DNA of 64,000 nt from an uncultured Bacteroidales bacterium. GTDB taxonomy: Bacteria > Bacteroidota > Bacteroidia > Bacteroidales > FEN-979. How positions within the stretch are numbered: the stretch's first letter is position 1; each line of letters starts with the position of its first letter. Shown one piece after another: positions 50,363 through 64,000 of this stretch. The notes beneath the pieces are model-generated. The model did not search any database. It was given only the letters and a program-made list of their open reading frames with translations, and was not told the origin of the DNA. Position numbers and translations under genes: made by a program. Location of the stretch: the NCBI GenBank assembly GCA_903845055.1, contig CAIMWF010000038.1, forward strand, positions 1 through 64,000. The letters run 5' to 3'.

Positions 50363-51208
50363 ATGGTTCATCCCAAAAAACACCTTGGCCAGCATTTCCT
50401 CAGGGATGAAAACATCGCCCGGAAGATCGTAAGTTACCTGAACCCTGAAATACCGCTGGTGCTTGAGGTCGGACCGGGGATGGGGGTCCTGTCAAAGTAC
50501 ATCCTGGACCTCATGGAGGAGGCGCAATCCTTTCCTGCCATTGATCCGTGGTTTATGGAGATTGACCGCGAATCGGTCGATTACCTCCGGCACACCTACC
50601 CGCAGATCGCGGGCCGGCTGATCCAGGCCGATTTCCTTTCGTGGGATACCTCCACCTTCCCCCCTGCAGCCGATCCCTCTCAGAAATTTACCGTGATCGG
50701 TAATTTCCCTTACAATATCTCATCGCAGATCCTCTTCAAGGCGCTTGATAACCGGGACCGGATTCCTGAAGTGATCGGCATGTTCCAGAAAGAGGTGGCC
50801 GAACGGATCGCCTCGCCTCCCGGCAACAGGTCGTACGGGATCATTAGTGTGCTGCTGCAGGCTTTTTATGACATTGAATACCTGTTTACCGTGAATGAGA
50901 CGGTTTTTTACCCGCCGCCCAGGGTCAAGTCAGCCGTCATTCGCCTGCGCAGGAACACTACCGAAAAGCTCGCGTGCGATGAGGCGTTTTTTACCAGGGT
51001 GGTTAAAACCGCCTTCAACCAGCGTCGTAAAACACTGCGCAACGCCATCAGGGTCCTTACCGGCAACATCACCCCGGAATCAGTGCCGGCCCCGTCGGCA
51101 TGGCTGCTTCATTGTCTCGATCTCAGGGCCGAGCAACTTTCGGTAGCCGACTTCGTGCAGCTTGCTTCAGAAATTTCTACCTTTGCACAAATTAATGTTT
51201 CAGGATGA
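50363..51208 (+). CDS. rsmA: 16S rRNA dimethyladenosine transferase
   Basis: 281 residues. HLGQHFLRDENIARKI is the typical N-terminus, LEVGPGMGVLS the SAM loop, FTVIGNFPYNISSQILF the NLPY-type catalytic motif (here NFPY, usual in Bacteroidetes), and VFYPPPRVKSAVI is conserved. It dimethylates two adjacent adenosines near the 3' end of 16S rRNA. The end overlaps the next start (ATGA). Confidence 0.96.
   Translation: MVHPKKHLGQHFLRDENIARKIVSYLNPEIPLVLEVGPGMGVLSKYILDLMEEAQSFPAIDPWFMEIDRESVDYLRHTYPQIAGRLIQADFLSWDTSTFPPAADPSQKFTVIGNFPYNISSQILFKALDNRDRIPEVIGMFQKEVAERIASPPGNRSYGIISVLLQAFYDIEYLFTVNETVFYPPPRVKSAVIRLRRNTTEKLACDEAFFTRVVKTAFNQRRKTLRNAIRVLTGNITPESVPAPSAWLLHCLDLRAEQLSVADFVQLASEISTFAQINVSG
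51178..51185 (+). promoter_or_regulatory. -7 promoter element inside the rsmA 3' end
   Basis: TACCTTTG within the last codons of rsmA, 19 nt before the ATG at 51205; allows separate transcription of the downstream gene despite the 4-bp overlap. Confidence 0.55.
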
Positions 51209-53250
51209 AAAAAGGCCAGCTCCCGAAAACCCCCGCTCCCACGCGAAAGCCCGCTGTTCGTAAAAAGGCGGCTCCTGCTGAAAAACCGGTGGTGGTACCT
51301 CGCGGTTCCAAAAAAGCCAACCGCTATTTTGTTTTATTCTTCTTCCTCTTTGCATTCCTGCTTTATGGAAACACAATGCTGAACAAATATGCAGTCGACG
51401 ATAATTATGTCACCAACAACCAGCAGGTTCAAAAAGGGTTCAGGGCCATTCCCGAAATCTTTTCAACCCACTATGTCATCCAGCAGGGGAACATGGGTTC
51501 AACCTCGGCCGATTACCGGCCCATGGCAAAGGCCACCTTTGCCGTTGAGCACCAGTTCTGGGGAACAAAACCCGGTGTGAGCCACGGGATCAACATCCTG
51601 CTGTACTGGGCATTGTCGGTCATGCTGTTCTTTATCCTGAAAAGGCTGCTGAGAAACTACAACATCCTCTTCCCGTTCATGATCACCGTGCTCTTCATGG
51701 CGCACCCCGTGCATACCGAAGTAGTCGCCAGCCTCAAGAACCGCGATGAGATCCTTGCTTTCATCTGCGGACTGGGAAGTCTGCGGCTCATCCTGAAATA
51801 TGTCGACCAGCATCAGTCCAGGTTCCTCTTTTTTGCCATCCTGCTCTTTTTCATCGGGTACCTTTGCAAAACTGCCATCACTCCCTTCCTGGCGCTTTTC
51901 CCGCTTGTGCTATACTTTTTTACGGACCTGTCGCTTAAAAAATCAGGACTGATCCTGCTTGCCCTTCTCGCCGCAATCCTTATTGCGTTGTTTGGACCAC
52001 GGCTGTTCCTCCCCCCGGTACAGCACACCAACCATTTTATTGAGAACCCGCTCTATTTTGAAAAAGGATTCTGGATCAGGATCGGCACCGGCTTTTTAAC
52101 CCTGTTGTTTTACCTTCGCATCCTGCTCTATCCTTACCCGCTGTTGTACTATTACGGTTACAACATGATCCCGGTGACAAGTCTTGCGAGTTTCTGGGCC
52201 CTCCTGTCACTGCTGATCCATGCGGTTTTGTTCCTGTACGCGATCTGGAAACTGAAGGGAAAAAACATCCTTTCCTTTGCCATCCTCTGGTATCTCGCCG
52301 GGATTGCCATGTACTCCAACATTGTTGTTCCCGCGGTGGGTATCGTCGGTGAACGCTTTGTTTTCAATGCTTCCCTCGGATTCTGTATTGCCGTGGTCTG
52401 GTTCATCTTTAAAATATTCAAAACCGATCCGAAAAGCCTTACCATTGAGATGGATTCACGGCTCAAGATCCTGGCGGTGCTCGTGCTCCTGGTGATACCC
52501 TATACCGTTCTTTCGGTATCGCGAAACCGCGACTGGCGCAACCTGTTCGACCTGTACCGGACCGATGTGAAGTCGCTGGGCAATTCCGCCAAGGCCAACA
52601 TCGACTATGCCGGTTTCCTGATGAACACCGTTTACCAGGACGAAAATTTCCTGAGGACCGGCGCCGTCAACCAGTTTAAATACCAGACCATCATCACCCA
52701 TTACCGGAGGGCATTGACCGTTTACCCGAAGGATTATCAAACCTTCAACGACCTGGGCACGGTGTACCTGTTCATGGGAAAGAATTATGATTCCGCCGTC
52801 TATTTCCTAAGCCGGGCGATTGCGCTCGATTCAACCATGCAGCCTGCCTGGGTGAACCTGGGAATGGCCTACCGCGACCAGAAGCTTTACACCAAAGCGC
52901 TAGGATGCTATGAGCACATCCTGGCGGTCAATCCCAACCAGATCAAGGCGGTTTTCGCGATGGCCGACGTATACAACGACATGGGCGATTTTGAGCGTGC
53001 TGTCAGCATGAATGAGGAGATGATGAAACGCTATCCCAACCTTGAAATGCCCTACGTCAATATCGGCAATTATTATATGCTTAAGACCGATACGGCGACC
53101 GCCGTCCATTACTGGGAAAAAGCAGCGGCCATCAACCCGAGTTACGAATTGTGCCTGCAGCTGCAATCGCTCTACGTGCTCAGGGGCGACCAGGAAAAAT
53201 CGGAATACTACTATAAACTGGGTCAGCAGATCGTCAAACAGAGCCAGTAA
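51205..53250 (+). CDS. TMTC-like membrane protein with C-terminal TPRs
   Basis: 681 residues. A basic Lys/Pro/Ala-rich cytoplasmic lead (about 1-40) precedes about ten hydrophobic helices. Motifs match GT-C-type glycosyltransferases of the TMTC/DUF1736 group: VDDNYVTNN in the first extracytoplasmic loop and HPVHTEVVASLKNRDEIL. After about residue 470 there are at least four TPRs (for example YDSAVYFLSRAIALDSTMQPAW). Eukaryotic TMTCs are O-mannosyltransferases. The bacterial relatives are thought to glycosylate exported proteins, consistent with general O-glycosylation in Bacteroidetes, but this is inference. Confidence 0.85.
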   Translation: MKKGQLPKTPAPTRKPAVRKKAAPAEKPVVVPRGSKKANRYFVLFFFLFAFLLYGNTMLNKYAVDDNYVTNNQQVQKGFRAIPEIFSTHYVIQQGNMGSTSADYRPMAKATFAVEHQFWGTKPGVSHGINILLYWALSVMLFFILKRLLRNYNILFPFMITVLFMAHPVHTEVVASLKNRDEILAFICGLGSLRLILKYVDQHQSRFLFFAILLFFIGYLCKTAITPFLALFPLVLYFFTDLSLKKSGLILLALLAAILIALFGPRLFLPPVQHTNHFIENPLYFEKGFWIRIGTGFLTLLFYLRILLYPYPLLYYYGYNMIPVTSLASFWALLSLLIHAVLFLYAIWKLKGKNILSFAILWYLAGIAMYSNIVVPAVGIVGERFVFNASLGFCIAVVWFIFKIFKTDPKSLTIEMDSRLKILAVLVLLVIPYTVLSVSRNRDWRNLFDLYRTDVKSLGNSAKANIDYAGFLMNTVYQDENFLRTGAVNQFKYQTIITHYRRALTVYPKDYQTFNDLGTVYLFMGKNYDSAVYFLSRAIALDSTMQPAWVNLGMAYRDQKLYTKALGCYEHILAVNPNQIKAVFAMADVYNDMGDFERAVSMNEEMMKRYPNLEMPYVNIGNYYMLKTDTATAVHYWEKAAAINPSYELCLQLQSLYVLRGDQEKSEYYYKLGQQIVKQSQ

Positions 53251-56283: not shown

Positions 56284-57243
56284 TTACTGTTTTTTCCCGA
56301 GCTCCTCTTTTATTTTGGTGCTGATGATCGCCGCCCCGGCAGGGTTCACATGGTCGGCGTTGAAAAAATATCCGGGCTTGCCGTGGAATTCATTGCGGTA
56401 ATCAAAGAGCAGGAAATTGTTGCAATGGTCGCGGGTAAGGGTTACAATCGCGCGGTCGAGCTTCTCCAGGTCGACCATCCTGTGTGCATATTTCAGGTAT
56501 TCATCGCTCATCGGCATCCTGAGCAGGATGAGGCGGATCCTGTATTGTTTGCACAGGCTGAGTATTTTCAGGTAATATTTTGTCTCACCGAGTACCGGAT
56601 TTCGCCCGTAACTCGAAAGGTAAACCGTTGCTATTTCAAATCCCAGGGCTTCGCGGTTGCGCTCCTTTGCAAAGTTGCGGTAATCCCTTGCCGGGATATA
56701 GCCGTTTTTGACCACCTGCATGTCGGCATTGCGGAATTGCAGCGACATCAGCACATACCTGTAATTCCCGGCATAGGAGAAGAAATTGCCCGAAAGCCAG
56801 TTCAGCAGGTACCCGGGATCGTTCGATTCGCGCGCAATCTCAAAATAATCCAGGTATTTCCGCCAGTAGCCATCGAAAGAAAGTTCATTTTCGGCCCTGG
56901 GGCTGAAATTGACGGGGTCGATGGAAAGAAGGATGTTTTGGGGTCTCTTGTTCGTTTTTTCGAGGATGTACTTTAATTTGTAATAGGTTTGCGCGTATAC
57001 CTCCTTGGGCATGATGTATGAAAAACCGGGCCCGAGTATCGCGGGATCCACCCGGTTGTGGGAGTTGCCAAGCATCAGGTACCTGATCGAATCGGGGCAG
57101 GCTTCGAATTGTTCGTCCTGCTGCCTGCTCAGCCTGAAATAATACATCCGTCGGTTGTAAACGATGTTCAGCAGCGCATTCAGGGCGATGACCATGATGA
57201 CAAACACCAGCAGTTTTTTAAAAAATAGAATTTTCCGGTCCAT
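56284..57243 (-). CDS. DltD/AlgJ-like SGNH-fold membrane protein
   Basis: 319 residues from the ATG at 57243; the track start lies inside the MBOAT gene. One N-terminal membrane helix (about 10-30). The SGNH blocks are LMLGNSHNRVDP (Ser plus following His) and NADHVNPAGA (Asp-His pair) near the C-terminus. Such proteins complete acyl transfer started by an MBOAT partner, as DltD with DltB or AlgJ with AlgI. The start is one base after the MBOAT stop (TAAGATG), so the two are translated together. Confidence 0.88.
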   Translation of the reverse strand: MDRKILFFKKLLVFVIMVIALNALLNIVYNRRMYYFRLSRQQDEQFEACPDSIRYLMLGNSHNRVDPAILGPGFSYIMPKEVYAQTYYKLKYILEKTNKRPQNILLSIDPVNFSPRAENELSFDGYWRKYLDYFEIARESNDPGYLLNWLSGNFFSYAGNYRYVLMSLQFRNADMQVVKNGYIPARDYRNFAKERNREALGFEIATVYLSSYGRNPVLGETKYYLKILSLCKQYRIRLILLRMPMSDEYLKYAHRMVDLEKLDRAIVTLTRDHCNNFLLFDYRNEFHGKPGYFFNADHVNPAGAAIISTKIKEELGKKQ

Positions 57244-57244
57244 C

Positions 57245-58699
57245 TTAAAATTGAAAGTAGAAAAATTTCTGACTTGAAAAAACGCCGAAAGCAAGCAGGA
57301 ACATTACCATGAAAAGGTATGCGGCATACCGGATGATGACCGGTTTGCAAAGAAATTTCGAAGCCAGGGATTTCATGGCCACCAGGTATTCGAACCAGAG
57401 CATGAACAAAACGAGAACGATCCCCAGCAGAAGGTCCCCGTTTTTCAGCAGGGGCAGCAGGATCGCGTGGCCGGTCTGGCTGAAATCGGCCAGGTTCAGG
57501 ATCATGTAAAATGAGTCATGGAGCGGGTGCGGACCAAAGAAAAAGGCGGTGGAACATATCAGCAGGAAGGTGGCCGTGATGTTCAGCCCCTGGAGCAGTC
57601 GCGGGGCGGAATCCAGGCCGGTCACCCGGTTGAACCGGGTCATTAGGGGCCTGAAAACATTTGCGATGACCATAAAGGTGCCCTGGAACAAACCAAAAAT
57701 GATGAAATTCCAATAGGGGCCGTGCCAGAAACCAACCAGCACGAAAACAATGACCAGGTTGAGGTTCATCCGCCAGTTTACCTTTCGGCCGCGAAAGGTG
57801 AAGGGGAGGGAGAAATAGACATAATCGCGCAGCCAGGAGGTCAGGGAGATGTGCCAGCGGCTCCAGAATTCGGCAATCGACCGGGCGCTGAAGGGCCGGT
57901 TGAAATTCGGGCTCAGCCTGAACCCCATCAGCCGGGCCGATCCGATGGCAATATCGGTATATCCTGAGAAATCGGCGTAAACCTCCATCATTTTAAGAAC
58001 GATGGCGATGGCGATCTCGGGGCCGTGGAAATATCCTATGTTGCTGAAAACGGGATCCACGAACATGGAAAGCCGGTCGGCGATGGCCACTTTTTTGAAC
58101 ATGCCCCAGAGGATGAGGCGCAGTCCGCTGGTGAACAGTTGGGGATCGAAGCTGTGTTCGGCATGGAATTGCGGGATCAGCCTCCTGCCGCGCTCGATCG
58201 GGCCGGCCAGCACCAGCGGGAAAAAAGAGACGAACAGTGCGTAGATCCCGATGTTCTTCTCCGGTTTGACGACGCCACGGTATACATCGATGGTGTACCC
58301 GATGGTCTGGAAGGTGTAAAACGATATACCTGCCGGAACCAGGATGCCCATCCAGGGGATGACCGGCCTTTTCCCGGCGATCCCGGCAAACTGGTTCACA
58401 AGGTCGGTGAAGAAAACAAGGTACTTGAAGAAAACCAGCATCCCGAGGTTGACCGCCAGGGTGATAAGCAGGTATTTCAGCCGTTGTTTTTTATCCGGGA
58501 TCTTTCCCATCCGCACCGCGGCATAGTACGACACCAGGGTTGCTCCCATCAGCACCAGGACGAATTCGGCCCGCCACAGGAGATAAAAAAAATAGCTGGC
58601 GGCAAGGAGGATCATCCAGCGGAACCGGAAGGGGACCAGGTAGTAAAGCAATACGACGGCAGGGAGGAAAACGAGATATCCGATGGAATTGAAGAGCAT
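57245..58699 (-). CDS. MBOAT-family O-acyltransferase (AlgI-like)
   Basis: 484 residues from the ATG at 58699 (MLFNSIGYLVFLPAVVLLYY), the typical AlgI opening. At least ten hydrophobic helices; GISFYTFQTIGYTIDVYRG, YADFSGYTDIAIG, EFWSRWHISLTSWLRDYVY and the catalytic His in VLVGFWHGPYWNF are all intact. It moves acyl groups (commonly acetyl) across the inner membrane to extracytoplasmic sugars. It is fifth of six genes in the operon. Confidence 0.94.
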   Translation of the reverse strand: MLFNSIGYLVFLPAVVLLYYLVPFRFRWMILLAASYFFYLLWRAEFVLVLMGATLVSYYAAVRMGKIPDKKQRLKYLLITLAVNLGMLVFFKYLVFFTDLVNQFAGIAGKRPVIPWMGILVPAGISFYTFQTIGYTIDVYRGVVKPEKNIGIYALFVSFFPLVLAGPIERGRRLIPQFHAEHSFDPQLFTSGLRLILWGMFKKVAIADRLSMFVDPVFSNIGYFHGPEIAIAIVLKMMEVYADFSGYTDIAIGSARLMGFRLSPNFNRPFSARSIAEFWSRWHISLTSWLRDYVYFSLPFTFRGRKVNWRMNLNLVIVFVLVGFWHGPYWNFIIFGLFQGTFMVIANVFRPLMTRFNRVTGLDSAPRLLQGLNITATFLLICSTAFFFGPHPLHDSFYMILNLADFSQTGHAILLPLLKNGDLLLGIVLVLFMLWFEYLVAMKSLASKFLCKPVIIRYAAYLFMVMFLLAFGVFSSQKFFYFQF

Positions 58700-58713
58700 A
58701 GGTTCCCTGCCTG

Positions 58714-59412
58714 TTATTTCGTGAAAACATCCCCGCCTGTTTCGCGGTACCATACCCCTTCGGGGGATTCCTCCCGGTCAAGGCTGCCGGGATATTCTTT
58801 TAAAAGGGCTTCAAACCGCTGAGCCAGCCCTGTATCATAATCGGCGTTCTCAAACAATACTTTTGCAAGGTGATCTGCGCCGGCCAGGGCCCTCACGGCC
58901 TTCCTGATCTTCCCGCCCCGCTGTTCAAAACGTTCGCGGGTCAGTTCATACTGCTGGTTATCGGCCTCCTCCTGGCTTTCGCAAAGCCGGTACCCGAGTT
59001 GTAAATTGAAGTTGACCGCATTGGCGTTGGTACGCATGATGTGTGCAACCTGCCGTTTCCACCCAAGCAGGAAAAAGGTGGTTTCGATGCCGGCAACCGA
59101 TACCAGGTAAGGTACGAAGGTATTGTAAAACTCGGTCCGGCCGAGGAATATCCCCGATTCGGAGGAGCGGGACTCCCAGTCGATGTTTTTGTCGTTCAGC
59201 AGACCGATCTTTTCTCCCCGGTAGTGGATCATGAGGTAATTGTTCTTCAGGTTGCTGACCGACCTGAACCAATCAAGCTGCTGCACAGGCGAAATGATCT
59301 CCCGGTATTGCATGTTCAGCCTCACAGGGTCGGAGTTTCGCCATTGCCTCACCAGTTCAATATCCCCTTCGGTGAGCCGCTCCAGGATGATCCCGTATTT
59401 AAAGAACTTCAT
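58714..59412 (-). CDS. GNAT-family N-acyltransferase (PseH-like)
   Basis: 232 residues. LERLTEGDIELVRQWRNSDPVR at the N-terminus and VAHIMRTNANAVNFNLQLGYRL near the middle are the usual marks of sugar-nucleotide N-acetyltransferases such as PseH. A 60-residue helical tail follows. The enzyme would acylate an amino group on a nucleotide-activated sugar with an acyl-CoA. The start overlaps the 3' end of the GT2 gene by 14 bp; the MBOAT start is 14 nt after its stop. Confidence 0.82.
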   Translation of the reverse strand: MKFFKYGIILERLTEGDIELVRQWRNSDPVRLNMQYREIISPVQQLDWFRSVSNLKNNYLMIHYRGEKIGLLNDKNIDWESRSSESGIFLGRTEFYNTFVPYLVSVAGIETTFFLLGWKRQVAHIMRTNANAVNFNLQLGYRLCESQEEADNQQYELTRERFEQRGGKIRKAVRALAGADHLAKVLFENADYDTGLAQRFEALLKEYPGSLDREESPEGVWYRETGGDVFTK

Positions 59413-60340
59413 GGTTCAGCATCGTTTTGATGGCAAAGGGGGGCTTTTGGTTCTGCACCATGTAGATCCGGCTCAGGTATTCGCCGATGATGCCCAGCGA
59501 CAGCAGGATGATGCTGGTCGAAAACAGGATGGCCACGATGAGGGCGGTAAACCCCAGCGGAACATCGCGGAAGATCTTCTTGTAAATAAATACCAGGCCG
59601 ATGAAGAAGCTGAACATGGCGGTCATGAAACCTCCGTAAACCATCATCCGCAGGGGAATCGCCGTGTAATAGATCACCAGGTTCGAAAAGAGAGAAAAGA
59701 GACTGTGGCTGGTGTAGGATGACTGCTGGTAGGGCCGTTTCCGGTGGTCGACCAGCACGAAGGCGATGTGGCTGGTATACCAGTTGAAAAGTTCATCAAT
59801 GTAAATGAAGTTGATCTGGTGGTTGAGCAGGTTTTTTGCAAGCGACGATTTCATCAGCCTGAAGGAGGAGCCGTTGCCCTTGGTCTTGAAAATCCTGCGC
59901 GACCAGCCTTTCAGTGCGCCGCTGCCCATGTTGCGGGCCATGGAATGGTGTTTCGTTCCATAGATGCCATACACGAGGTCGGCATCCGAATGTTGCATGG
60001 TATCGATGAGTTTGGCAATTTCCTCGGGTGGATTCTGAAGGTCGTCGTCGATGGTGATGATAAAGTTACCCGATGCCTGTGCGATGCCGCAGATGGTTGC
60101 GTTGTGCTGCCCGAAATTCCGGGCCAGGCGGATGGCGATGATGTTCGCCGGGTTGGCCTTCTGAAGCGTTTCCAGCCTTTCCCAGCTGGCATCCTGGCTT
60201 CCGTCGTCGACAAAAACAACCTCGAATGATTTTTCAATTTTTTCCATGGTCTGCCCGATCCGGAGGAACAACTCCTCCAGCGATTCGCAGCTGTTAAAGA
60301 CCGGGACAACGACGGAATAATCAGGCTTCATCTTGCTCAT
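59399..60340 (-). CDS. GT2 polyprenyl-phosphate glycosyltransferase (GtrB/ArnC-like)
   Basis: 313 residues from the ATG at 60340 (MSKMKPDYSVVVPVFN). GT-A fold: VVVPVFNSCESL, FVDDGSQDAS, and ITIDDDLQNPPEE with the DDD metal site. Two C-terminal helices (about 235-300) place it with dolichyl- or undecaprenyl-phosphate glycosyltransferases, which attach a sugar to the lipid carrier on the cytoplasmic face. It probably supplies the lipid-linked sugar for later acylation. Start is 5 nt after the SDR stop. Confidence 0.93.
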   Translation of the reverse strand: MSKMKPDYSVVVPVFNSCESLEELFLRIGQTMEKIEKSFEVVFVDDGSQDASWERLETLQKANPANIIAIRLARNFGQHNATICGIAQASGNFIITIDDDLQNPPEEIAKLIDTMQHSDADLVYGIYGTKHHSMARNMGSGALKGWSRRIFKTKGNGSSFRLMKSSLAKNLLNHQINFIYIDELFNWYTSHIAFVLVDHRKRPYQQSSYTSHSLFSLFSNLVIYYTAIPLRMMVYGGFMTAMFSFFIGLVFIYKKIFRDVPLGFTALIVAILFSTSIILLSLGIIGEYLSRIYMVQNQKPPFAIKTMLNHEVL

Positions 60341-60345
60341 GACGG

Positions 60346-61080
60346 TTAACCTCCTCCTAATATAAGATTCGTGGCGCTCACCCATTTCGATGCATCCGAC
60401 AGGTAAAAGATGATGGTATTGGCAACATCCACAGGGTCGCCAAGCCCAAGCAGCTGGCGCTCTTCAATTTTATTCACCGCCTCCTGCGAAAAGTTCTCGG
60501 CAGTTTCGTTGAGCATGGGGGTGCGCACGAAAGCGGGGGCGATGCAGTTCACCCGGGTGCCCCTGGATGCCAGTTCAAGTGCCAGGACGCGTGCATAGGC
60601 CTCCAGGGCGGCCTTGGCGCTGATGTACATGGCCCCGCCCACAAAAGGATACCGAGTCGATATGGAGGAAATGAAAACAATGGAGCTGTTGCCCTTTGAA
60701 AGTTTCTTCTTTGCCAGGATCCTGGCGGTGAGCAGCACGGAGGCGTCGAAGCTGATGCGGAAGGTCCTGGAAATGGTCTCAGCCGTGATAAACCTTGCCG
60801 GTGCAAGTTCGGAGATGCCGGTGCTTTGTACCAGCCCGTCCAGCATTGGCAGGGCCTCCACCAGCCGGTCAATGTCGGCCTGGATGGTAAGATCGGCAGG
60901 GATTTGCTGATGGCCTTCACCCTGGAGTGAACCGAACGTCTCCTGCAGCCGTATGGTGTTTCGCCCCGTGACAATGACACGGGCGCCATATTCGCTGGCC
61001 GTGATGGCGGTTTGCCTGCCCAGTCCCGAGGAGGCACCCGTGACAAGAACCGTTTTGCCTTTCAGATCAAATGCGTTCAT
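60346..61080 (-). CDS. SDR reductase (FabG-like)
   Basis: 244 residues. TGASSGLGRQTA cofactor loop, LVQSTG in place of NNAG, FISSIS, and YISAKAALEAYARVLALELA with the catalytic YxxxK; C-terminal LILGGG. Length and pattern match 3-oxoacyl-ACP reductases. It overlaps the ketoacyl synthase gene by 4 bp (ATGA) and most likely reduces the 3-keto product of that enzyme to a 3-hydroxyacyl group. Confidence 0.92.
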   Translation of the reverse strand: MNAFDLKGKTVLVTGASSGLGRQTAITASEYGARVIVTGRNTIRLQETFGSLQGEGHQQIPADLTIQADIDRLVEALPMLDGLVQSTGISELAPARFITAETISRTFRISFDASVLLTARILAKKKLSKGNSSIVFISSISTRYPFVGGAMYISAKAALEAYARVLALELASRGTRVNCIAPAFVRTPMLNETAENFSQEAVNKIEERQLLGLGDPVDVANTIIFYLSDASKWVSATNLILGGG

Positions 61081-62162
61081 CCGTTTTCAGATTGTACCGG
61101 CAGGGCTTCCTGTTCGGTAAATTCAGGGACCACCATGCCATCGGTTTCAACGAGGACGGTGCCCCATGACAGCCCGATCCCGAAAGCCGAGAGCAGGAGT
61201 TTGTGCGGTTTTTCGGCCAGGCTGGTCCGGATCTGGGTAACCATGGTCAGCGGGATCGACGAACAGCTGGTATTTCCGAAGTCGTGGAGCGAATAGGGAA
61301 CCCTCGAAGGATCCACCTTCAGCATCTTGCGCAGGGTCTCGTTGATCAGCCGGTTGGCCTGGTGAAACAGCAGGTAGTCGAACTCATCGAGCTGCCTGTT
61401 GAAATGTTTCAGGGTGGTTTTGATGTTGGGGACCACCTCGCGCAGGGAAAAGTTGAACACTTCGATCCCGTCGAGCGCGATCTGCAGGCGGTTGTGATAG
61501 ATCCCTTCGCCGTATTTTTTGATGGTGAAAGATTTTTTGCTGGCGAGGTTCCGCACGCCGCCGTCGCGGATAATGATGGCTTCGTAGCCGCTGCCGTCGG
61601 TCTGCAGGTTGAACTGCATGGCCGGGTGACCCGGCTTCAGCTCGAGGGCCGTGGCCGTCCCGGCATCGCCGAATAGCGGGAAGGTGCTTTTGTCGCGGTA
61701 GCAGGAGGTAACATTCGACAGGTCGCCGACCAGCAACAGCCCCTTTTGCATGCCGGTGGCCCGGATCAGGCTGCTGATGACCGAGAGGCCGTAAACATAT
61801 CCCGAACAACCGAGGTTGATGTCGATGGCCATGCAGGTTTTGGGCAGTTTCAGCCTGTCCTGGAGAATGGCGGAGGTCGAAGGGATGATGTAATCGCGCG
61901 ACTGGGAAACGAAAACAAGCAGGCTGATGTCATTCCTCGCCCAGACCAGCTGATCCAGCAACTGTTCCGCCGCCTGGAAACAAAGGTCCGAAGTGGTCTG
62001 CCCGGGCACGGCAACGTGCCGGGTTTCCACCCCGATCATGTTGATCAGCTGGTCGCGCTCCTTTTGCGTGATCCAGTCGTAATCGTGATTGGATAAACTT
62101 TTTTTGGGAACACAGGCCGAAAGACCGGCAATCCTGACATCGGGTATCTCAAAAATGGCCAT
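61077..62162 (-). CDS. Ketoacyl-ACP synthase III-like enzyme
   Basis: 361 residues, longer than FabH (about 320) but usual for the Bacteroidetes glycan-cluster branch. Triad Cys119 (INLGCSGYVYGL), His267 (LLFHQANRL) and Asn297 (DFGNTSCSS) is intact. GLSACVPKKSLSN and the IGVETRHVA segment follow the family. Predicted condensation of a short acyl-CoA with malonyl-ACP. First gene of the six-gene operon, preceded by a TACTTTTG -7 box. No acyl carrier protein gene is seen nearby, so it must use the housekeeping one or one outside the window. Confidence 0.92.
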   Translation of the reverse strand: MAIFEIPDVRIAGLSACVPKKSLSNHDYDWITQKERDQLINMIGVETRHVAVPGQTTSDLCFQAAEQLLDQLVWARNDISLLVFVSQSRDYIIPSTSAILQDRLKLPKTCMAIDINLGCSGYVYGLSVISSLIRATGMQKGLLLVGDLSNVTSCYRDKSTFPLFGDAGTATALELKPGHPAMQFNLQTDGSGYEAIIIRDGGVRNLASKKSFTIKKYGEGIYHNRLQIALDGIEVFNFSLREVVPNIKTTLKHFNRQLDEFDYLLFHQANRLINETLRKMLKVDPSRVPYSLHDFGNTSCSSIPLTMVTQIRTSLAEKPHKLLLSAFGIGLSWGTVLVETDGMVVPEFTEQEALPVQSENG

Positions 62163-62203
62163 TTCCTGCTTCGGTTGGTCTCTGCTGTTACAAGCTTACT
62201 ACG

Positions 62204-62211
62204 CAAAAGTA
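62204..62211 (-). promoter_or_regulatory. -7 promoter element of the acyl-modification operon
   Basis: TACTTTTG on the minus strand, 41 nt before the ATG at 62162. No good -33 element. Confidence 0.6.
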
Positions 62212-62280
62212 CTTTTTTTTTCTTTAAAGTCTCCTTTTTTCTAAATTTGCCCGGTTAGGTACGACCATTCTCCGTTTCCT

Positions 62281-62315
62281 TTTGAGTTTTGAACTTTGAT
62301 CTTTAATTTATCATT
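62281..62315. repeat. Degenerate heptamer array (TTTGAGT/TTTGAAC/TTTGATC...)
   Basis: About five 7-bp units sharing TTTGA or TTTA, related to the GAGTTTT family. Confidence 0.55.
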
Positions 62316-62392
62316 TAATTCGTAAAAGGTTTGCGAAGCACAGGACCCGCATGAGGAAATACACGTAAAGAAAATCAAGGAATGAGCGTTAA

Positions 62393-62438
62393 AAACTGCG
62401 GACTGTTTGAGGTGCGCAGCGCCGAGTTTCCGCAGTTT
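62393..62438. repeat. REP-like palindromic element
   Basis: Perfect 10-bp arms AAACTGCGGA / TCCGCAGTTT around 26 nt that contain an inner GGTGC-GCA-GCGCC hairpin. A GC-rich imperfect palindrome in an AT-rich gap. No T-run, so not a simple terminator. Confidence 0.6.
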
Positions 62439-62490
62439 AGAGAATGACGCGGATTTTTAGTGAATCTCCGTAAGCGGTGACTTTTCTTTG

Positions 62491-62523
62491 TTTCTTTCTT
62501 TTGGTGGCAGCATAAGAAAGAAA
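62491..62523. repeat. Hairpin with TTTCTTTCTT / AAGAAAGAAA arms
   Basis: Perfect 10-bp inverted repeat with a 13-nt loop, 52 bp after the REP-like palindrome; the two may form one composite element. Confidence 0.6.
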
Positions 62524-62589
62524 GGCAATAAAATATCGAATATTGATCAATGAAATTTGAAGTTTTTGCCAGAGGAAAAATTAAATGGC

Positions 62590-62613
62590 AAAATGGTAAA
62601 ATGGTAAAATGGT
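62590..62613. repeat. Octamer tandem repeat, unit AAAATGGT
   Basis: Three perfect 8-bp units with degenerate flanks (TTAAATGGC before), about 65 bp before the acyl-AMP ligase start. Confidence 0.85.
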
Positions 62614-62680
62614 AAAATTGGGGCCAGCCGACAGGCTCCCGATCGAACCGTAATTTTAAACTTTGAATTAAAAACACTGC

Positions 62681-64000
62681 ATGCATGACGATATGGATTT
62701 GACCAGCCCGGTGCCGGTTCCCGGCGACCTTCAACTGGAGCCTGGAAGGGCGACCATTGTTGCTGTTCTGCGCAGGCGGGCTGAACTGCTTCCCGCGAAA
62801 AGGGTCTTTACCTTCCTTGCCAACGGGGAGGACGAGACAGGTTCCTTAACGTATGCTTCGCTCGACTTGGGCGCACGGAACATCGCGGTGAAACTGGAAG
62901 CGCTGGGATTGACGGGTAAGAAGGTCCTGATGTTTTACCCCCCCGGTTTCGATTTTATCCTTGCCTTCTTCGGTTGCCTGTATGCAGGGGTGATCCCTGC
63001 AACAGCCTACCCGCCACGCAAAAACCGGTCGCTTCACCGTATCCGCACCATTGCTGCCGATTGCGGCGCCGATTCTATTCTCACCACCGATGCGATCGCC
63101 CGTTCGCTGGAACGGAATTTTGCCGAAGACCCTTTGCTTGCAGGCCTTCCCTGGCATGCAACGGATACCTGGCCGGTTTCCGGTCCATCCCCATCCCCGG
63201 CATTTGAACCAGGATTCGAAGACCTGGCATTCCTTCAATATACTTCAGGTTCAACCGGCGATCCAAAGGGGGTGATGGTCAGCCACCGTAACATCATGTA
63301 CAACCTGCGTTCGCTGCAGCTGATCTTCCGGATCACCCCCGGTGATGTTGCCGTGCACTGGGTGCCCCAGTTTCACGATCTCGGGCTGATCTTCGGAATC
63401 CTCGAAACCGTCTTTTCAGGATCCCTTGCCGTGCTCATCCCGCCGTTTATCTTTATTTCAAACCCTGTCCTCCTGCTTGGGGCGATCACACGCTACCGCG
63501 CAACCGTGAGCGGGCAGCCCGATTTTGCCTTTAACCATTGCGTGGAAAAGACCGATGCGGCCCGGATTGAACACCTTGACCTGTCGTCGCTGCGGGTCAT
63601 GTACAGCGGCGCCGAACCGGTGAGAAAGTCAACCCTCGACCGGTTCTTTTCAACATTTGCCCCGGCCGGACTTAAAGCAGCCTCCCTCATCCCCGCATAC
63701 GGGATGGCTGAATCCACCCTGATCCTGGTCGGTGGGTCGGTGACGGAACCGCCTTTCTTTCTTCCTGTCAGTACCGCAGCGCTCGAAAAAAACCTGGTGG
63801 TCACCGTAAATGAGCCGGATACCAGCACGGACATCCAGTGGATTGCAAGCAACGGAAGGCCGCAAATGGATACCTCCATGCTGGTCATGGACCCCGAAAC
63901 CTGTGAAATACTGCAGCCCGGTAAGGTAGGGGAAATTTGGGCCGGCGGGAGCACGGTGACCATGGGATATTTCGGCAAGCCTCTGCTGACGGAGAGCGTT
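62681..64000 (+). CDS. Fatty acyl-AMP ligase (FAAL), C-terminus cut by window edge
   Basis: Read by hand; open for 440 codons to the edge and absent from the ORF track. The adenylation motifs are FLQYTSGSTGDPKGVMVSH (P-loop-like A3), WVPQFHDLGLIFG, and IPAYGMAEST (A5). VSGQPDFAFNHCVEK and the opening LTYASLDLGARNIA also follow the FAAL group, which makes acyl-adenylates and passes the chain to an acyl carrier protein rather than to CoA. FAALs are often the first module of a larger synthase, so the real protein may be much longer. Divergent from the ketoacyl synthase operon; a common acyl-chain pathway is likely. Confidence 0.93.
   Translation, partial: MHDDMDLTSPVPVPGDLQLEPGRATIVAVLRRRAELLPAKRVFTFLANGEDETGSLTYASLDLGARNIAVKLEALGLTGKKVLMFYPPGFDFILAFFGCLYAGVIPATAYPPRKNRSLHRIRTIAADCGADSILTTDAIARSLERNFAEDPLLAGLPWHATDTWPVSGPSPSPAFEPGFEDLAFLQYTSGSTGDPKGVMVSHRNIMYNLRSLQLIFRITPGDVAVHWVPQFHDLGLIFGILETVFSGSLAVLIPPFIFISNPVLLLGAITRYRATVSGQPDFAFNHCVEKTDAARIEHLDLSSLRVMYSGAEPVRKSTLDRFFSTFAPAGLKAASLIPAYGMAESTLILVGGSVTEPPFFLPVSTAALEKNLVVTVNEPDTSTDIQWIASNGRPQMDTSMLVMDPETCEILQPGKVGEIWAGGSTVTMGYFGKPLLTESV

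Follow-up and report, generated by a model that had tools for sequence, protein, structure and literature searches.

A chromosomal Bacteroidales locus predicted to make and export a lipid-carrier-linked N-acyl amino sugar

Introduction

The closest described counterparts of the locus treated here are gene clusters for acylated amino sugars. The viosamine island of Pseudomonas syringae pv. tabaci (vioA, vioM, vioT, vioS, vioB, vioR and acp), which is homologous to the glycosylation island of P. aeruginosa PAK, comprises an aminotransferase, an acyl carrier protein (ACP), a beta-ketoacyl-ACP synthase III (KAS III), a reductase, an acyltransferase and a glycosyltransferase, and mass-spectrometry data on mutants are available (PMC3927599). 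Here we compare such systems with a locus found in a stretch of 64,000 nucleotides from an uncultured Bacteroidales bacterium (the window in what follows), in which six minus-strand genes, encoding KAS III, a short-chain dehydrogenase/reductase (SDR), a family 2 glycosyltransferase (GT2), a GNAT-type acyltransferase, an MBOAT protein and an SGNH protein, are divergent from a gene for a fatty acyl-AMP ligase (FAAL). From the sequence evidence we consider it probable, at roughly 0.6, that this chromosomal locus serves to synthesise and export a 4-amino-4,6-dideoxy sugar that is linked to polyprenyl phosphate and carries a tailor-made N-acyl group.

Judged by gene content, the locus resembles the viosamine island in its clustering of a sugar 4-aminotransferase, KAS III, a 3-oxoacyl-ACP reductase, an ACP, an N-acyltransferase and a glycosyltransferase, and the product of the island, an N-(3-hydroxyacyl) 4-amino-4,6-dideoxy sugar, is similar to the one predicted here. 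The differences are that the transaminase of the locus is of the WecE type, directed to 4-amino-4,6-dideoxygalactose (Fuc4N), whereas that of the island produces 4-amino-4,6-dideoxyglucose (Qui4N), and that the locus has an ArnC-type membrane GT2 where the island has the 1173-aa VioT for the flagellin glycan; no large VioT-like transferase was found at the locus. Beyond the island, it adds FAALs, a radical S-adenosylmethionine (SAM) enzyme, a sulfotransferase, the MBOAT/SGNH pair and a flippase. Within the Bacteroidota, the R-group genes of the Flavobacterium psychrophilum O-antigen (wfpC-G) form a predicted set of ACP, 3-ketoacyl-ACP synthases, reductase and acyltransferase, and the chemical structure shows a 4-amino sugar with a dihydroxyhexanoyl group in amide linkage. 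That system differs in its UDP-Qui2NAc4N substrate, its PglD-type acyltransferase and its place in a Wzy-dependent O-antigen locus, and the part of the account drawn on here mentions no polyprenyl-phosphate GT2 (PMC6519341).

For the later steps, the Arn (pmr) pathway is the better comparison, with a 4-aminotransferase, N-acylation (a formyl group in Arn), ArnC-type transfer to polyprenyl phosphate, flipping and transfer by a GT-C enzyme; WecE, GNAT, GT2 and the flippase run parallel to ArnB, the ArnA formyltransferase, ArnC and the flipping step (PMC10632790). The locus is expected to use a dTDP-6-deoxyhexose rather than a UDP-pentose, and a GNAT with a probable acyl-ACP donor rather than a formyltransferase. 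Neither ArnA nor ArnD is among the genes of the locus, to which this search was confined. The earlier note on this DNA, based on the window, knew of no described pathway with this set of genes. That holds for the full set, but not for the core (PMC3927599), and the F. psychrophilum O-antigen genes offer a similar acyl module (PMC6519341). Thus, the acyl-sugar core has published precedents, and the combination of parts appears to be new. No relevant paper emerged when full texts were searched for FAAL together with Bacteroidetes, glycosyltransferase, sulfotransferase and radical SAM, a search that left most subscription journals uncovered. The cluster is widespread among Bacteroidales and, as a full set, apparently undescribed.

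Materials and methods

The window comprises positions 1–64000 of an 86,695-base contig (G000:C38) in a draft genome of 3.95 Mb, of which the nearest named relatives are uncultured Bacteroidales, part of them labelled Lentimicrobium or Lentimicrobiaceae. We searched 149 related genomes, its own included, for the GNAT (E ≤ 1e-3) and the GT2 (E ≤ 1e-60). Surroundings were taken from 36 of these genomes, and 80 named loci from public genomes were added, the two sets overlapping; presence counts and contiguity were taken over 81 loci. Family assignments were based on Pfam and NCBIfam models with curated cut-offs, on structure matches, and on predicted structures used for fold searches.

Gene content and conservation

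The six minus-strand genes and the divergent FAAL lie where the earlier note had placed them (Table 1) and belong to the families it had named, the SGNH protein by virtue of a predicted DltD-like fold. Pfam cut-offs are exceeded by KAS III, SDR, GT2 and MBOAT. Adjacent open reading frames (ORFs) overlap by 4–50 nt, with 4 nt between KAS III and SDR, and therefore form an operon-like unit; internal start codons, if used, would shorten part of the overlaps. The right limit previously given, 64000, was the end of the window, and the locus continues for about 8 kb, to about contig position 72181. Extending the contig, as had been proposed, brought to light a free ACP, an ACP domain fused to the first FAAL (FAAL1), a second FAAL (FAAL2) and the sugar aminotransferase WecE.

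Table 1 Features of the locus (contig numbering; positions up to 64000 lie in the window)
Feature	Position	Strand	Remarks
TMTC-like protein, putative GT-C glycosyltransferase, with tetratricopeptide repeats (TPRs)	51205..53250	+	candidate transferase of exported sugar
SGNH/DltD-fold membrane-anchored MBOAT partner	56284..57294	-	start probably 57243
MBOAT O-acyltransferase, DltB/AlgI-like	57245..58753	-	PF03062; start possibly 58699
GNAT, predicted sugar 4-amino N-acyltransferase, PseH-like	58714..59412	-	
GT2 polyprenyl-phosphate glycosyltransferase, ArnC/GtrB type	59399..60385	-	
SDR, probable 3-oxoacyl-ACP reductase	60346..61080	-	PF13561/PF00106, FabG-like
KAS III (FabH-type) beta-ketoacyl-ACP synthase	61077..62162	-	PF08541/PF08545; first operon gene
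KAS III/FAAL1 intergenic region, divergent, with dispersed repeat	62163..62680		518 bp
FAAL1 with C-terminal ACP domain, 686 aa	62681-64741 (window part 62681..64000)	+	PF00501, PF00550
Free ACP	64783-65016	-	
FAAL2	65121-66869	+	
PAPS-type sulfotransferase	66854-67948	-	
B12-binding radical SAM protein	68179-69639	+	
Wzx-type (Wzx/MOP) flippase	69641-70960	-	
WecE transaminase (dTDP-Fuc4N)	71024-72181	+	

Among the related genomes, the GNAT is present in 43 of 149 and the GT2 in 38 of 149. Comparison of gene order had been set beforehand as a test, and the order is conserved: KAS III, SDR, GT2 and GNAT occur together in 53 of the 81 loci, strictly contiguous and on one strand in 39 of these, while the others are split by a sulfotransferase, a radical SAM gene or small ORFs, or are rearranged. 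With dozens of genomes showing this arrangement, the association is not due to chance. Between loci, the four core proteins also have correlated pairwise identities (Spearman 0.54–0.68). Usually the ACP stands ahead of KAS III, one to three sulfotransferase genes follow GNAT on the other strand, and one to five radical SAM genes, mostly about 45% identical to that of the window's locus, are mostly divergent from the ACP. A spread throughout the phylum was considered and rejected, since a GNAT match (E ≤ 1e-25) occurs in just 2 of 395 other, evenly drawn genomes; the cassette is thus not general to Bacteroidota.

The composition proposed from the window was partly right. KAS III, SDR, GT2 and GNAT are widely shared, but MBOAT, SGNH and FAAL are accessory; the shared part is ACP-KASIII-SDR-GT2-GNAT plus sulfotransferase, radical SAM and WecE. 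Most relatives carry radical SAM and sulfotransferase copies in place of MBOAT-SGNH and FAAL. Loci with at least two radical SAM genes hardly ever have FAAL1, which is present in 1 of 23 of them, against 17 of 30 (Fisher 8e-5, a value that ignores shared ancestry). Where FAAL1 is present, its place is characteristic: in a dozen loci (L076, L077, L079, L081, L083, L086, L092, L106, L109, L110, L112 and L119) it is found on the opposite strand between the genes for ACP and KAS III, the ACP of these relatives being on the operon strand. The FAAL thus belongs to the cluster, and not to an unrelated pathway on its right. One of these loci, L106, holds four FAAL1-like pieces, some of which may be split genes.

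Predicted pathway

Gene content, protein families, active sites and gene order are read directly from the DNA, and it is from these that we infer the substrates, the structure of the acyl group, export, the acceptor and every reaction proposed below.

The identity of the sugar is suggested by the transaminase, which exceeds the curated cut-offs of two WecE models (NF008687, 505 against 375 bits; TIGR02379, 459.6 against 434.85 bits), has WecE proteins as its closest solved structures and keeps the catalytic, pyridoxal phosphate-binding lysine in 29/29 sequences across loci. Together with RmlB, which is encoded elsewhere in the genome and scores above its cut-off, WecE would make dTDP-Fuc4N. 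On a dedicated ACP, the active-site serine of which is kept in 55/55, KAS III and SDR would build a 3-hydroxyacyl group. The KAS III matches FabH-like NCBIfam models below their cut-offs, and its catalytic Cys, His and Asn are kept in 58/58; a further FabH homologue is encoded apart from the locus (on contig C58, 31% identity), which is consistent with the locus KAS III being other than the housekeeping enzyme. The catalytic Tyr of the SDR is found in 57/57 and its Lys in 55/57. In the subtype represented by the window, FAALs would in addition activate free fatty acids onto ACPs; the closest solved structures to FAAL1 are FAALs (E 1e-134 to 1e-55), and its fused ACP is a ready partner.

The GNAT would then move the acyl group from the ACP to the 4-amino group of the sugar. 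Its Pfam score is just under the cut-off (23.1 against 25.4 bits), it reaches 56 bits with the model of PseH, an acetyl-CoA-dependent enzyme, missing that cut-off of 93, and its relatives among PDB structures are SpeG, PseH and FdhC. However, in the segment that aligns to the P-loop binding the CoA pyrophosphate, the glycines are unconserved in 76 GNAT homologues. The acyl-homoserine lactone synthases and other GNAT-fold enzymes with an acyl-ACP donor likewise have no CoA P-loop, and the absence of these glycines fits an ACP-bound donor. Combined with the presence of a dedicated ACP, KAS III and ketoreductase, it suggests that an ACP-borne hydroxyacyl group would be transferred onto dTDP-Fuc4N.

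Loading of the N-acyl sugar on polyprenyl phosphate is the role that we propose for GT2. Its residues 23–322 match ArnC structures, including the C-terminal membrane part (E 1e-39), the match to the structure of the polyprenyl-phosphate transferase sll0501 is full length (E 2e-38), and a DxDLQxPP motif is present in 55 of 63 homologues. With 161 bits against 529 required by the curated ArnC equivalog, the protein is of the same wider family as ArnC, other than ArnC itself. The flippase could carry the lipid-linked sugar across to the periplasmic side. There, a GT-C enzyme would hand it to protein or lipopolysaccharide; the TMTC-like protein encoded nearby is a possible candidate. The radical SAM/B12 enzymes probably alter the chain or the sugar, for example by methylation, the sulfotransferase would add sulfate earlier, in the cytoplasm, and MBOAT and the DltD-like protein may O-acylate the exported glycan. 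Overall, the route would follow the logic of the Arn pathway, except that a designed acyl group takes the place of formyl.

Chromosomal site and the TMTC-like neighbour

Genomes of the same family in which the cassette is missing have the order KsgA-TMTC-flippase-VPS10-MtnA-SerS at this site (L154–L157; partly L161, L164 and L165). Such cassette-free sites place the cassette between the TMTC-like gene and the flippase gene, both of which are not strictly part of it, and since the whole cassette is absent from an identical site in relatives, it behaves as a unit. On the right of WecE in the window's genome follow a sortilin/VPS10-like protein and proteins that resemble MtnA and SerS by sequence. 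One otherwise cassette-free site (L168) keeps a lone sulfotransferase gene. The position, with housekeeping genes on its flanks, is thus one at which the cassette is gained or lost.

In human TMTCs, DD, YRP and ER motifs are part of a GT-C fold for which ArnT served as the model (PMC7801869). Like the TMTC/PMT clan described there, the neighbour of the locus has a multi-helix N-terminus with these motifs, followed by TPRs, and the motifs are conserved wherever the sequence is complete; unlike the clan, it keeps the M4 motif KE(T/Q)xxT just partly. A fold search matched the TPR part alone, so that the GT-C assignment rests on the motifs. Outside the family, an orthologue tracks the cassette, being present in 14–15 of 16 genomes with it and 1 of 90 without it (Fisher about 1e-14 or smaller), and among the genomes nearest by SerS in 8 of 8 against 0 of 18; the orthologue threshold, E < 1e-100, was picked after the data were seen. 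We also considered the TMTC-like gene as an obligate part of the cassette, which was not upheld, as within the family it stays beside KsgA when the cassette is missing. That this neighbour would act as the counterpart of ArnT, passing on the exported sugar, is possible on the basis of these motifs and co-occurrences, at well under even odds. TMTC-like proteins are highly multiplied in these genomes, with at least ten scored matches in that of the window.

Weighing of the alternatives

The earlier note had predicted a surface sugar that bears its own dedicated acyl chain. This is still the best reading, and it gains strength from the ACP, the transaminase, the flippase, the lipid-carrier type of GT2, the conserved order and the membership of the FAAL in the cluster. 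Several points weigh against the pathway as drawn. The loss of the P-loop is merely negative evidence for the use of ACP by GNAT. WecE is found in 30 of the 81 loci, and in many others it is absent or outside the fetched stretch. GT2-GNAT occurs without KAS III in 14 loci, some with ACP, radical SAM or WecE, although contig ends contribute to such absences; since some loci lack both KAS III and SDR, a 3-hydroxyacyl group cannot be universal. The flippase, being kept in genomes without the cassette, may serve something else, and it is of the Wzx type, whereas the monosaccharide carrier of the Arn pathway is moved by small flippases of the ArnE/ArnF type.

The presence of a Wzx-type flippase suits the leading alternative, in which the locus is an ordinary module for N-acylation of an O-antigen or capsule sugar, GT2 being a chain glycosyltransferase and the acyl sugar one residue of a Wzx/Wzy polysaccharide. 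Equal enzyme sets for the acyl sugar in published clusters (the viosamine island and the F. psychrophilum R-group) also speak for it. Yet no other glycosyltransferase, polymerase or priming enzyme was recognised at the locus, the full-length match of GT2 is to polyprenyl-phosphate transferases, and recurrent unmatched flanking genes resemble housekeeping genes; clustering of such ORFs for hidden co-conserved genes gave, by eye, mostly housekeeping-like proteins. We regard this explanation as unlikely.

Less probable still is a product assembled on the ACPs, either a membrane lipid or a specialised metabolite, that is sulfated or methylated and to which the glycosyl genes merely add a head group. 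The linkage of FAALs, ACPs, sulfotransferases and B12 radical SAM proteins, the latter weakly similar to lipid enzymes (HpnJ, ladderane-type), would be accounted for, but GT2-GNAT, sometimes with WecE, survives where acyl genes are missing, and FAALs are absent from most loci (FAAL1 present in 20/81, FAAL2 in 21/81). That the six-gene operon and the FAAL with the right-hand genes are two unrelated neighbours, as their transcription in opposite directions, the 518 bp between them with its dispersed repeat and the lack of FAALs in most same-genus relatives might indicate, is largely refuted by the recurrent ACP-FAAL1-KASIII order and may be dismissed as very improbable.

If the preferred reading of an exported, lipid-carrier-linked acyl sugar is correct, a large uncultured group of Bacteroidales devotes a conserved locus, of about 16 kb here, to one exported acyl amino sugar. 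The sugar would then be a counterpart, on a lipid carrier, of the acyl sugars of viosamine type, and FAALs and B12 radical SAM enzymes would be tailoring parts that can be exchanged. Such a locus would also offer a defined setting in which to ask how multiple B12 radical SAM copies act on a substrate bound to ACP or to a sugar. In protein O-glycosylation of Bacteroidota, the transferase, the ligase and one flippase are undiscovered according to a recent review (PMC12871550), and a GT-C of TMTC type, found in company with a pathway for polyprenyl-phosphate sugars, would be a concrete candidate for periplasmic glycosyl transfer in the phylum. A more far-reaching proposal is a new class of Bacteroidales surface glycosylation, in which tandem B12 radical SAM enzymes edit a polyprenyl-phosphate-linked Fuc4N with a custom acyl amide, and the sugar, once sulfated and flipped, is attached to proteins or lipopolysaccharide by a bacterial GT-C of TMTC type, the acyl part being swapped between lineages (FAAL or radical SAM type); taken as a whole, this is tentative and rather unlikely.

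Accessory genes and minor observations

The MBOAT protein scores 78.6 bits with PF03062, and its Trp-His-Gly is kept in 12/12. It resembles DltB/DltD and AlgI/AlgX-type pairs in being encoded together with a partner of SGNH/DltD fold, but with the DltB model it reaches 165 bits, far below the equivalog cut-off of 375, and no DltA or DltC was recognised at the locus. Its SGNH partner matches no Pfam or NCBIfam model; the nearest neighbours of its predicted fold (mean predicted local distance difference test score 80) are DltD and further SGNH hydrolases/esterases, and among 14 homologues GxSH and a C-terminal active-site His are invariant and a DxxH-type motif nearly so. In the subtype of the window the pair comes after GNAT; a few other loci have it at a different place. 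Two more MBOAT genes, with 34–35% protein identity, are present in the genome (G000:C10:8498-8648 and G000:C4:22444-22595; L006, L007).

Methylation by the radical SAM enzyme and sulfation by the sulfotransferase are roles predicted from family alone. The genome has an adenosine 5'-phosphosulfate kinase for synthesis of 3'-phosphoadenosine 5'-phosphosulfate (PAPS). Five radical SAM pieces each, some of which may be split genes, are present in L115 and L143.

In the KAS III-FAAL1 gap, the region 62300–62640 holds the dispersed repeat, which recurs on contigs C148 (93% over 207 bp) and C35 (85%) and a 29-bp end of which occurs in about ten further places, and short tandem AAAATGGT repeats that come after it. 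No B12 or other riboswitch was found inside the cassettes scanned. A SAM riboswitch lies about 4 kb past WecE in another locus (L107:19696-19814), in a stretch that includes a cysteine-synthase-like gene, and is probably unrelated to the cassette.

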